From Hellea sp. (lineage in GTDB: Bacteria > Pseudomonadota > Alphaproteobacteria > Caulobacterales > Maricaulaceae): a stretch of 35,745 nt of DNA. The notes under the pieces were generated by a model that searched no databases, was not told the origin of the DNA, and worked only from the letters and a program-made list of their open reading frames with translations. Both the position numbers and the translations under genes were made by a program. Location: contig JAHDGM010000004.1 in the NCBI GenBank assembly GCA_020627655.1, forward strand, positions 1-35,745, in the 5' to 3' direction. Positions 8,237 to 12,295 of the stretch are shown here, one piece after another (position 1 is the stretch's first letter; each line of letters opens with the position of its first letter).

Positions 8237-8295
8237 GTTCCATTTATGTTCTTTTTTCTTGCGCGGTGAGAACAAAGTGTGTACATAACGTACAC
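8237..8295 (+). promoter_or_regulatory. recA promoter with LexA box(es) and a palindrome
   Basis: GTTC-CATTTAT-GTTC at 8237-8251 matches the alphaproteobacterial LexA box (GTTC-N7-GTTC) exactly. A second, reverse-oriented match with one mismatch, GAAC-N7-GTAC, lies at 8270-8284. A candidate -35 TTGCGC (8259-8264) and -10 TACATA (8282-8287) are separated by 17 bases, so the second box covers the -10. GTGTAC-N5-GTACAC (8279-8295) is a perfect inverted repeat over the same place. Promoter elements are assigned by eye. Confidence 0.7.
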
Positions 8296-8367
8296 GGCAG
8301 TCCATTTCCAGCCGCAAAATAAAACAGGTGACCGAAGGGCTCCGGTCATCTAATTTGGAGATCAGAA

Positions 8368-9468
8368 ATGGCCAGTAAGGCAAAATTAAAAGTCGTAGGT
8401 AACCCCATGGATGCAGATAAATCTTCTGCGCTAGATGCAGCGCTTAGTCAGATTGACCGTGCCTTTGGTAAAGGGTCGGTGATGCGCCTCGGGCAGAAAA
8501 ACAGTTTAGATGTAGAGGCGGTTTCAACAGGCTCTCTTGGGTTGGATATTGCGCTCGGTATCGGCGGTCTGCCTAAAGGGCGGGTTATTGAGGTTTACGG
8601 CCCGGAAAGTTCCGGCAAGACCACATTATCTCTGCACTGCGTAGCTGAAATGCAAAAGCAGGGCGGGGTAGCGGCTTTTATTGACGCTGAACATGCTTTG
8701 GATCCTGTATATGCGGCTAAATTAGGTGTAGATGTCAATGAGCTTCTGATTGCCCAGCCTGATACAGGTGAGCAAGGACTTGAAATCGCAGACACGCTCG
8801 TACGTTCTGGGGCTGTTGACATTTTGGTCATCGATTCAGTTGCAGCGTTGACGCCGCGGGCAGAACTTGAAGGCGATATGGGGGATAGTTTGCCAGGTCT
8901 TCAAGCACGCCTCATGAGTCAGGCTTTACGGAAATTGACAGGATCAATTTCTAAGTCTGGCTGTATGGTAATTTTCATCAATCAAATCCGTCACAAAATC
9001 GGTGTCATGTATGGTTCACCGGAGACAACAACAGGCGGGAATGCATTGAAGTTTTATTCTTCTGTTCGTTTGGATATCCGCCGTATCGGCGCGATAAAAA
9101 GCCGGGACGAAGTGGTTGGCAATCAGACCCGTGTGAAGATTGTTAAAAATAAAGTGGCACCGCCTTTCCGTCAGGTTGAATTTGACATCATGTATGGTGA
9201 AGGTATCTCAAAAACCGGAGAACTTATTGATCTGGGTGTTAAAGCGGGTGTTGTTGAAAAATCAGGATCTTGGTACTCATATGGCGAAGAGCGAATTGGG
9301 CAAGGGCGCGAAAATGTTCGGCAGTTCTTGCTACAAAATCCAGATATCGCAGATGCCATTGAGCTTCATGTGCGCCGTAATGAGGGGTTGATTTCAGACG
9401 AACTTCTTATGCCTAAGGACGATGAAGATCGTGATCAAGGCGAGGATGACGTCGCCTCCGTCGGCTAA
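8368..9468 (+). CDS. recA: RecA recombinase
   Basis: A 366-residue RecA, about the usual length. It forms ATP-dependent filaments on single-stranded DNA, drives strand exchange and stimulates LexA self-cleavage. Visible features are the Walker A motif GPESSGKT (residues 78-85), [16 protein letters not shown], the L2-region segment [24 protein letters not shown], and an acidic C-terminal tail. The ATG at 8368 has GGAG seven bases upstream. The 150-base leader contains a perfect LexA box, so SOS induction is expected. alaS follows on the same strand after a folded region and a terminator. Confidence 0.98.
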
Positions 9469-9486
9469 TCTTTTTCATAGTTAAGG

Positions 9487-9590
9487 CTTAAGATAAGCCT
9501 GAGCCCTGATTGCCGTCCTCACATTCGTGGAGGATGGAGGGCGGCAATCAATCCCTTACTTCCCTAAACAGGGCTTATTTCTTATCTTGA
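9487..9590 (+). ncRNA. Candidate structured RNA between recA and alaS (possibly 6S-like)
   Basis: Nested complementary segments fold the whole interval into one long irregular stem: AAGATAAG (9490-9497) with CTTATCTT (9581-9588), GCCCTG (9503-9508) with CAGGGC (9569-9574), and ATTGCCG (9509-9515) with CGGCAAT (9542-9548). An apical stem CCGTCCTCAC/GTGGAGGATGG closes on an ATTC loop. An asymmetric internal bulge of about 20 bases lies on the 3' side. A terminator follows at 9596. A long stem with a bulge is the shape of 6S RNA, but I cannot confirm that family. It could also be the recA 3' UTR or an alaS leader. Confidence 0.45.
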
Positions 9591-9595
9591 ACCAA

Positions 9596-9627
9596 AAGAG
9601 CGCTTGGCTTTGTCAGGCGCTCTTTCT
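9596..9627 (+). terminator. Intrinsic terminator upstream of alaS
   Basis: AAGAGCGC (9596-9603) pairs with GCGCTCTT (9617-9624), extendable by TTG/CAG inside, and is followed by a T-rich stretch. It ends only 35 bases before the alaS ATG. alaS must therefore rely on readthrough, regulated antitermination, or a promoter inside this short gap. Confidence 0.7.
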
Positions 9628-9661
9628 ATATGAGGGGCTGGAAAATAAGGAAAGCCGACGG

Positions 9662-12295
9662 ATGACGAGTCTTCGTGATATTAGAACGCAGTTTTTATCC
9701 TATTTTGGGGATGATAAACATGAGGTCGTAGCCTCAAGCCCTCTTGTGCCGGATAACGATCCTACATTGCTCTTTACCAATGCCGGAATGGTGCAGTTTA
9801 AGAATTATTTCACGGGAGCGGAAACGCCGCCCTATAGGCGTGCCGCTACATCCCAGAAATGTGTGCGGGCAGGCGGAAAACATAACGACCTGGATAATGT
9901 GGGGTATACAGCCAGGCACCACACATTTTTTGAAATGTTGGGCAATTTTTCTTTCGGGGATTATTTTAAAGAACATGCCATTGAGATGGCTTGGAATTTG
10001 ATCACTAAAGACTTTGGTTTGCCAAAGGACAAGCTGTTGGTCACCATATATGCCGATGATGACCCAGCATTTGATCTGTGGAAGAAAATAGCCGGTCTGA
10101 CGGATGATAGGATTATCCGTATTGGCACGTCCGATAATTTCTGGGCTATGGGAGATACTGGTCCGTGCGGCCCCTGTTCTGAAATATTCTATGATCACGG
10201 CGATAAAATACCAGGTGGTCCTCCAGGCTCTCCAGATGAAGATGGGGATCGTTTTATTGAGATATGGAATCTTGTTTTCATGCAGTTTGAAAGCCTGCTT
10301 GGCGGAGAAAGAGTAAACCTGCCAAAGCCGTCCATTGACACAGGTATGGGGCTTGAGCGTATCGCGGCAATCCTCCAGGGTAAGCATGACAATTATGATA
10401 TTGATCTTTTCCAGAACTTAATTGCCGCATCCGTTGATTTGACGGGCGTTAAAGCCGAAGGCGATGCCAAGTTTTCTCATCGTGTCATTGCGGATCATTT
10501 GCGGTCTTGTTCCTTTTTGATGGCTGATGGCGTTTCCCCATCAAATGAGGGCAGGGGCTATGTGCTGCGCCGGATTATGCGGCGCGCTATGCGGCACGCC
10601 CATATATTGGGAGCCAAAGAGCCGTTGATGCACCGCTTAGTGCCTGCTTTGGTTGATGAGATGGGGGATGCATATAGCGAGCTAGGCCGGGCGCAGGCGG
10701 CTATTGAGGCTACATTTGAGCAAGAAGAAGAGCGTTTTCGCCGGACTTTAGGGCGGGGAACAGCTCTTTTAGAAGATGCTACGAAAAATTTTAAAGACGG
10801 GGATGTCTTGGAAGGCGAAACAGCGTTTAAGCTATATGATACCTTTGGGTTTCCGCTTGATTTAACTCAAGATGCTCTGCGTAGCCGTGGTATTGCTGTG
10901 GATACTGATGGATTTGATGCAGCTATGGCTCGCCAAAAGGAAATGGCCCGGGCAAACTGGTCAGGTTCTGGTGATGCCGGCACAGATGATATTTGGTTGT
11001 CATTGCGTGAGGAACTGGGAGCAACAGAGTTTACAGGCTATGGAAATCTTGTAGGTTCCGAACCTGTTGAAGCGCTGATTGTTGATGGGCAGCGTGTGGA
11101 AAATGCCAGTAACACAGATGTCTTGTTTGTGACGCGGCACACACCCTTTTATGCTGAAAGTGGCGGTCAGGCTGGTGACAAAGGGGTGGTTAAGTTTGAT
11201 AACGGCGCAGAAATTACGGTTACAGATGTTCAAAAAAAGGCGGGCGACCTCCATGTTCATATTGGGACTCTAAAAGGATCCGTGACCGCAGGGGATGAAG
11301 CTGAGCTTCTAGTTGATGCGGATAACCGGCAAAAAACAAAACGCAATCACTCGGCGACGCATATTATGCATGAGGCTTTGCGCCGGATACTTGGTCCTCA
11401 CGTCACGCAAAAAGGCCAAATGGTTGATGGTGACCGCATCCGTTTTGATATCTCTCACGGCGGTGCGATCACGCGCGAAGAACTTGCTGAAGTGGAAACC
11501 CAGGTTAATCACATCATTTTACAAAACGTTGAAGCGGGAACGCAGCTTATGGCGCCCGATGCAGCCATTGAGGCTGGGGCTATGGCGTTATTTGGTGAAA
11601 AATATGGCGATGAAGTTCGCGTATTATCATTAGGTGCGCCTCTGGGCGACGAAGATAAGGCTTATTCGGTAGAACTTTGCGGCGGCACGCATGTTGCGCG
11701 TACGGGCGATATTGCGCTTTTTAAAATAATATCTGAAGGCGCAGTTGCTGCGGGTATTCGCCGGGTTGAAGCCGTAACCGGTGAGGAGGCCAGGCAGTAT
11801 TTAGAGAACCAGGCTGGATTAACCCGCCAATCAGCCGATACCCTTAAAGCCAAGCCTGAGGATGTACCTGCGCGGATCAAGGTGCTTCTGGCTGAACGCA
11901 AGCAATTGGAAAAAGACTTGGCTGAAGCTAAAAAGCAGCTGGCGCTTGGCGGTGGCGGAAGTGCCTCTAAGACTGAAGAAATCAATGGCGTTAAGTTTTC
12001 AGGACGTGTTTTGGACGGCGTTTCCGGTAAAGACTTACGCGGTATTATAAATGAACAGATTGCGCAGATAGGATCCGGCATTGTAGCTTTCGTAGCCAAA
12101 AATGAGGGCAAAGTTGCTGTTGCTGTTGCCGTTACGCCCGATCTTACCAATACCTATTCGGCTGTGGACCTGGTTAATGCCGGGGCTGAAAAGGTTGGCG
12201 GCCGCGGTGGTGGTAAGCCGGGCATGGCTCAAGCGGGCGGCAGTAATCCTGAAGGTGCTGATGAGGCGCTTGCGGCTATCAAAGCTTCGGTCTGA
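9662..12295 (+). CDS. alaS: Alanine--tRNA ligase
   Basis: An 877-residue AlaS, the standard length. I chose the ATG at 9662 ([15 protein letters not shown]). The open frame extends 45 codons further upstream, but that part runs through the terminator and lacks family sequence, whereas AAGGAAA precedes 9662. The N-terminal class II catalytic core shows [33 protein letters not shown] and [11 protein letters not shown]. The editing domain has HSATH (H563, H567) and CGGTH (C673, H677), the zinc-binding set that clears Ser- and Gly-tRNA(Ala). The C-terminal C-Ala domain ends with a Gly-rich [15 protein letters not shown]. The stop overlaps the next start (TGATG), so the following gene is probably translationally coupled. 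Confidence 0.97.

Follow-up and report, generated by a model that had tools for sequence, protein, structure and literature searches.

The locus studied here belongs to Hellea sp. (assembly GCA_020627655.1, contig JAHDGM010000004.1), which NCBI taxonomy places in the Maricaulales, Robiginitomaculaceae. The whole stretch of DNA analysed, 35,745 nucleotides, is referred to as the window. Two genes on the plus strand are separated by a spacer of 193 bases that contains a long hairpin and a shorter GC-rich one (Table 1). The upstream ORF has relatives at 82-95% identity, and its name, recA, is taken from general knowledge and from an earlier note on the same sequence. The recA gene serves DNA repair and SOS induction. 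The downstream alaS frame is open back to position 9527, but an upstream extension of AlaS was rejected because relatives align from 9662 and spacer lengths vary. alaS was detected in 115 of the 119 genomes of the family, and 91 of these were examined, yielding 86 distinct recA-alaS spacers from 87 genomes; recA was not found beside alaS in the remaining four (L031, L037, L058 and L095). The spacers of all ten genomes of the genus were examined.

Table 1. Features of the recA-alaS locus, with positions in the window
Feature	Position	Strand	Basis or remark
recA 5'-leader RNA, two hairpins	8293-8370	+	covariation, model R2
recA, upstream gene	8368-9468	+	ORF, 366 aa
Long hairpin RNA element	9485-9593	+	fold z -6.9, P3 covariation, P1 cross-species control, model R1 matches
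P0, local 5' hairpin GGCTTA-AGA-TAAGCC, excludes P1	9485-9499	+	forced-fold comparison, 7 species
P1 helix	9485-9497 with 9581-9593	+	part of long hairpin
P2 helix	9500-9507 with 9570-9577	+	part of long hairpin
P3 helix	9508-9520 with 9537-9549	+	part of long hairpin
Apical stem-loop of long hairpin	9521-9536	+	
J32, unpaired C/U-rich strand with CTTCCC (9559-9564)	9550-9569	+	strand marked by hand
GC hairpin (A-run on its 5' side, short U-run), probable recA terminator	9594-9626 (stem 9595-9625)	+	fold
Putative alaS promoter CTTGGC-N17-CTATAT	9603-9631	+	-35 in GC hairpin 5' arm, -10 just after hairpin
alaS, downstream gene	9662-12295	+	ORF, ATG at 9662

The earlier note had described a strongly folded RNA between recA and alaS, built from nested complementary segments with an asymmetric bulge, and the fold bears out all three points. 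The RNA of 9487-9627 reaches -71.3 kcal/mol (z -8.76; mean of 200 dinucleotide shuffles -37.5, sd 3.86, none as low) and consists of one long hairpin followed by the GC hairpin, the bulge being the 20 unpaired bases of J32 on the 3' side of the former. Taken by itself, the long hairpin has a z of -6.9, with 0/200 shuffles as low. Two details had been misread: the ATTC taken for the tip belongs to the last stem, the tip loop being GTGGA, and the gap of 35 bases to the alaS start is in fact 36, as the GC stem ends at 9625. The terminator placed 3' of the long stem stands in part. A hairpin of 14 pairs with a 3-base loop is indeed there, but its stem is followed only by TTTCTAT, and a scan that needs a T-rich tail did not list it.

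Seven of the ten genomes of the genus carry the long hairpin, with fold z values from -3.7 to -8.9 and 0/200 shuffles as low in each. Values were weaker for a longer stretch, which starts at the recA stop, extends almost to the GC hairpin and cuts off a few P1 bases (-2.3 in G008 to -7.9 in G006); with these longer flanks, G004 has a z of -3.1 and G009 folds with P0. Covariation of P2 and P3 was assessed on a sequence-based alignment of the seven carriers against 500 shuffles. The two helices are paired in 95.7% of the cells, against 30.7-48.2% when slid, and a single shuffle reaches that level. Changes on both sides occur in 7 of the 20 pairs, every one of them in P3 (10/500 shuffles reach 7), 14 further pair types are seen (40/500 reach 14), and the covariation score is 0.348 versus 0.176 (0/500). 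In this alignment P2 shows no both-side changes and four of its seven pairs never vary; the lowest-energy fold of G008 has another pairing in its place. Since the letters and lengths of P1 differ between species, this helix was not assessed by alignment columns. Instead, the 5' strand of each of the seven carriers was paired with the 3' strand of every other and its own, the strands having been marked by hand from the folds and hence chosen as pairing strands. The own partner was the best in 7/7 rows and 6/7 columns, and the true assignment was the best of 5040 permutations. P1 strands of different species are not interchangeable. Compensatory changes are thus present among the recA-alaS spacers of relatives, as both-side changes in P3 and as own-partner preference in P1.

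In all seven species the plus strand gives a more stable fold than the minus strand does; 29 of the 271 plus-strand pairs are G-U and three of the nine single mismatches are C-A. These figures speak for an RNA in the sense of recA and alaS more than for a palindrome at the DNA level. J32 measures 18-31 bases among the carriers, with 67-80% pyrimidines, and holds CTTCCC in six of the seven, G009 being the exception.

A covariance model (R1) built from the seven carriers found one place in the genome of the window among the 150 candidates scored out of 228 (E limit 10). Over 149 relatives, at E up to 0.1, R1 found seven genomes, all within the genus and at recA-alaS, which are the same sequences that built it. 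Outside the genus it found 0/139 at that threshold, under strict filters and with 25 candidates scored per genome. G009 gave an additional match on the reverse strand, which is due to the palindrome. A plasmid search yielded a single short match that looks like chance (E 0.6). A recA tree was built with 14 rows (the ten genus members and four outgroups). Its split between the seven carriers on one side, and G001 and the pair G003 and G005 on the other, is supported at 93/96 (not starred); one origin of the long hairpin in the carrier clade is the simplest reading. G001 possesses a related but rearranged version that R1 misses (fold z -6.1, 0/200 shuffles), plus a separate hairpin followed by nine T. 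The 5' arm of this second hairpin (CTCAG; locus L013) is also a strand of a P2-like helix, so that the two would compete. The short spacers of G003 and G005 are devoid of the long hairpin and keep the GC hairpin, which in G005 has an imperfect inner stem and fails both of the spacer scans described below. Elsewhere in the family, the spacers L011 (G036) and L030 (G087) show another kind of hairpin, for which two forms are possible (GGTCAGG...CCCTGA-TTTTTT-CCTGACC), and the stretch before their GC hairpin has a z of -3.1 and -5.9, respectively.

At the gathering score, a tRNA was the one Rfam match anywhere in the window; with the limit relaxed to E 10, region 9380-9720 gave nine weak matches, all far below the family cut-offs and none of them 6S. 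The element shares with 6S RNA (RF00013) the shape of a long hairpin and a large bulge on one side, and differs from it in its size (about 109 bases versus 187 model positions) and in the lack of a match to the model. The 6S gene is usually single per genome, and the sole RF00013 match in this genome lies on another contig (L001, G000:C6:55200-55359; 50.9 bits, over the cut-off). Among the open-access papers listed in literature searches, none dealt with an RNA at recA-alaS or in the recA leader, which is weak evidence of absence.

Concerning the GC hairpin, the sequence that spans its 5' arm and the bases just after it shares 11 of 12 letters with CTTGAC-N17-CTATAT, the sigma-70 consensus used for Sinorhizobium meliloti (PMC2873474). 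The differences from an S. meliloti-type promoter are one letter of the -35 element and the location of this element within an arm of the probable recA terminator. We consider this sequence the likely promoter of alaS. No E. coli-type promoter with at least 9 of the 12 letters of TTGACA/TATAAT was found in a scan of 9200-9800. Genome-wide, CTTGRC-N17-CTATAT has two occurrences versus one for the reversed control, a count that, taken alone, proves little.

In a scan of the 86 spacers of the family for a hairpin followed by TATA within 14 bases, with the arm letters unconstrained and kinship ignored, the arrangement was found in 74 (26 distinct stems) and was absent from 12. The 5' arm contained TTGG in 72 of the 74, either as CTTGG (70) or as a shifted TTGGC (2), whereas the inner 3' arm had 15 variants among the 74 hairpins. 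A second scan required a TTGGC core; it selects TTGGC by construction and ignores kinship, and the asymmetry therefore rests on the unconstrained scan. This core was found in 75 of the 86 spacers, always with a 3-base loop. Opposite its two T, G or A was present in 30/30 and 27/30 of the distinct stems. TATA followed the hairpin in 72 of the 75, at 17 or 18 bases from TTGGCn in 69 and at 15 in three. We conclude, from the sequences, that the letters of the 5' arm are probably kept by its -35 role in DNA, and those of the 3' arm by the need to pair. The GC hairpin thus looks like one stretch of DNA under two constraints, those of an RNA arm and of a -35 element, with one arm frozen and its partner varying within the pairing rules. 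If confirmed by transcript ends, such arm asymmetry could reveal promoters hidden in terminators in other genomes. In a look beyond the family, the pattern TTG[AG]C, 15-19 bases, TATA[TA] upstream of alaS matched 1 of 80 named loci, the best 80 of 589 stretches, and that one was the Hellea record with the spacer of G004. Two family spacers, L032 and L033 (G064 and G028), have a GC hairpin with a T-run set apart from TATAT and a promoter-like part free of hairpin, in which TTTGGC/TTTGAC and TATAT stand too far apart for a usual promoter; they are possibly a natural case of split terminator and promoter functions.

How this arrangement might work is a more tentative matter. The reading that we favour, with caution, is that the long hairpin is an RNA of the recA 3'-UTR, a piece of which acts as a small RNA through its C/U-rich strand, and that the terminator overlaps the alaS promoter. 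Transcripts of recA would extend into the spacer and stop at the GC hairpin. In them P0 would form early, either transiently or as an alternative structure, and P3, P2 and P1 would fold. With a promoter in the same DNA, alaS would start afresh some 20-25 bases before its ATG. Because this putative start lies downstream of the long hairpin, the alaS mRNA would lack the hairpin, which would instead be part of the recA transcript or of an RNA of its own. The stable 3' end would protect the recA transcript or a processed piece of it, and such a piece would most likely be a 3'-UTR-derived small RNA whose J32, with its CTTCCC, pairs with purine-rich ribosome-binding sites. Small RNAs derived from 3'-UTRs are reportedly found in Rhodobacter sphaeroides. 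As in such RNAs, a conserved structured unit lies after the coding sequence, between the stop codon and the probable terminator and on the same strand, with a stable fold, an unpaired stretch and a GC hairpin at its end. Unlike them, the element is limited to one clade, has no Rfam family match and is a predicted RNA. Small RNAs with a C/U-rich anti-Shine-Dalgarno sequence form a class in Alphaproteobacteria. The unpaired C/U-rich strand recalls them, although theirs lies in a hairpin loop and here it bulges from one side of a long stem, and no family match was found. Pairing of J32 with the alaS start region, the only region tried, ranged from -3.2 to -11.5 kcal/mol, values that have no control. 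Of the three options offered by the earlier note (a 6S-type RNA, a leader of alaS and a small RNA derived from the recA 3' end), the last is the best supported, by position, strand, conservation with compensatory changes and the lack of a recognised promoter, and its transcript and function are what we infer. In any case, the element represents a candidate RNA attached to recA that has no Rfam match.

A purely local role is possible and almost as likely as the small RNA reading: the hairpin would stabilise the 3' end of the recA mRNA and insulate the alaS promoter from recA transcription, with no function in trans. The very stable fold agrees with this, as do the occurrence at one site in each carrier genome, flanked by recA and the GC hairpin, and the dispensability of the element in G003 and G005, which retain the GC hairpin. 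What a local role leaves unexplained is that J32 stays unpaired and C/U-rich in spite of its range of lengths, and that letters of P3 and P2 are invariant. It appears unlikely that the element is a small RNA gene in its own right, driven by a promoter within the end of recA. The element is a discrete conserved unit, and in G001 a hairpin with nine T follows its version; yet the scan of 9200-9800 yielded no promoter (a weak objection, as it also missed the putative alaS promoter) and a reading by eye of the upstream stretches showed no common -35.

P0 uses the same 5' strand as P1, and its letters differ among the other carriers (GACTCGC/GCGAGTC, GGCTCG/CGAGCC and others). The two helices could be either a switch or stages of a folding path. 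We consider it improbable that they form a conformational switch controlling how far recA transcription reads through into alaS: in 7/7 carriers both helices are possible, with changed letters, but P0 is weak in G008, forcing it costs 1.5 to 9.9 kcal/mol above the minimum free energy in the seven species, and the GC hairpin of the window shares no bases with either form. Insertion into the spacer of a dispersed repeat, palindromic or mobile, is very improbable in spite of the long inverted repeat, since blastn found no second copy in the genome, in agreement with R1 over the 150 of 228 candidates scored, and compensatory changes have been kept in place over the clade. One other species of the family does have a long inverted repeat in this spacer (L016/L043, G035; ends AAGGGTCTGAACCCTAGTAGGGAATT plus complement), situated between the putative promoter and alaS and insertion-like. 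Equally improbable is a 6S RNA or an alaS leader or attenuator, for which a long bulged hairpin upstream of alaS would speak: the former is excluded at this locus because it has no 6S match and the 6S gene of the genome is elsewhere, and the latter fails, if the promoter is right, because this lies downstream of the long hairpin.

A second structured RNA, likewise conserved, was found at the other end of recA, in its 5' leader. Of 25 leaders found, 19 were aligned, six near-copies being left out; 9 of 18 pairs changed on both sides and the covariation score was 0.228 versus 0.108 (0/500), the outermost pair of the second hairpin failing in 11/19. The leader model (R2) matched 16 of 249 genomes of the order, in 7 of 49 genera and all in this family, under strict filters. 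In the genome of the window one match carried weight, the other three having E above 2. recA lies downstream of the leader in 40 of 41 loci (38 distinct places), and the exception, L224, ends at a contig edge. Rfam gave no match on the leader strand up to E 1, the only match being on the other strand and below the cut-off. The loops AGTCC and GGGCT could pair in 33/33 aligned leaders (33 of the 41 loci), with letters that hardly vary, so a loop-loop contact is possible; likewise, the CTCC of the leader could pair with the GGAG of the recA ribosome-binding site. The leader GGGCTC is also complementary to GAGCCC in P2, which raises the prospect of a recA mRNA controlled from both ends. Here a two-state 3' hairpin (P0/P1) would pair its GAGCCC with the GGGCTC loop of the leader, and the mRNA ends or a released fragment would regulate RecA synthesis. 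We regard this as improbable, and a required contact between leader and P2 is disfavoured because G001 retains the leader loop with a changed P2 strand. Upstream of recA, at 8237-8251 on the plus strand, the window contains GTTC-N7-GTTC, which we take to be the LexA box form of Alphaproteobacteria.
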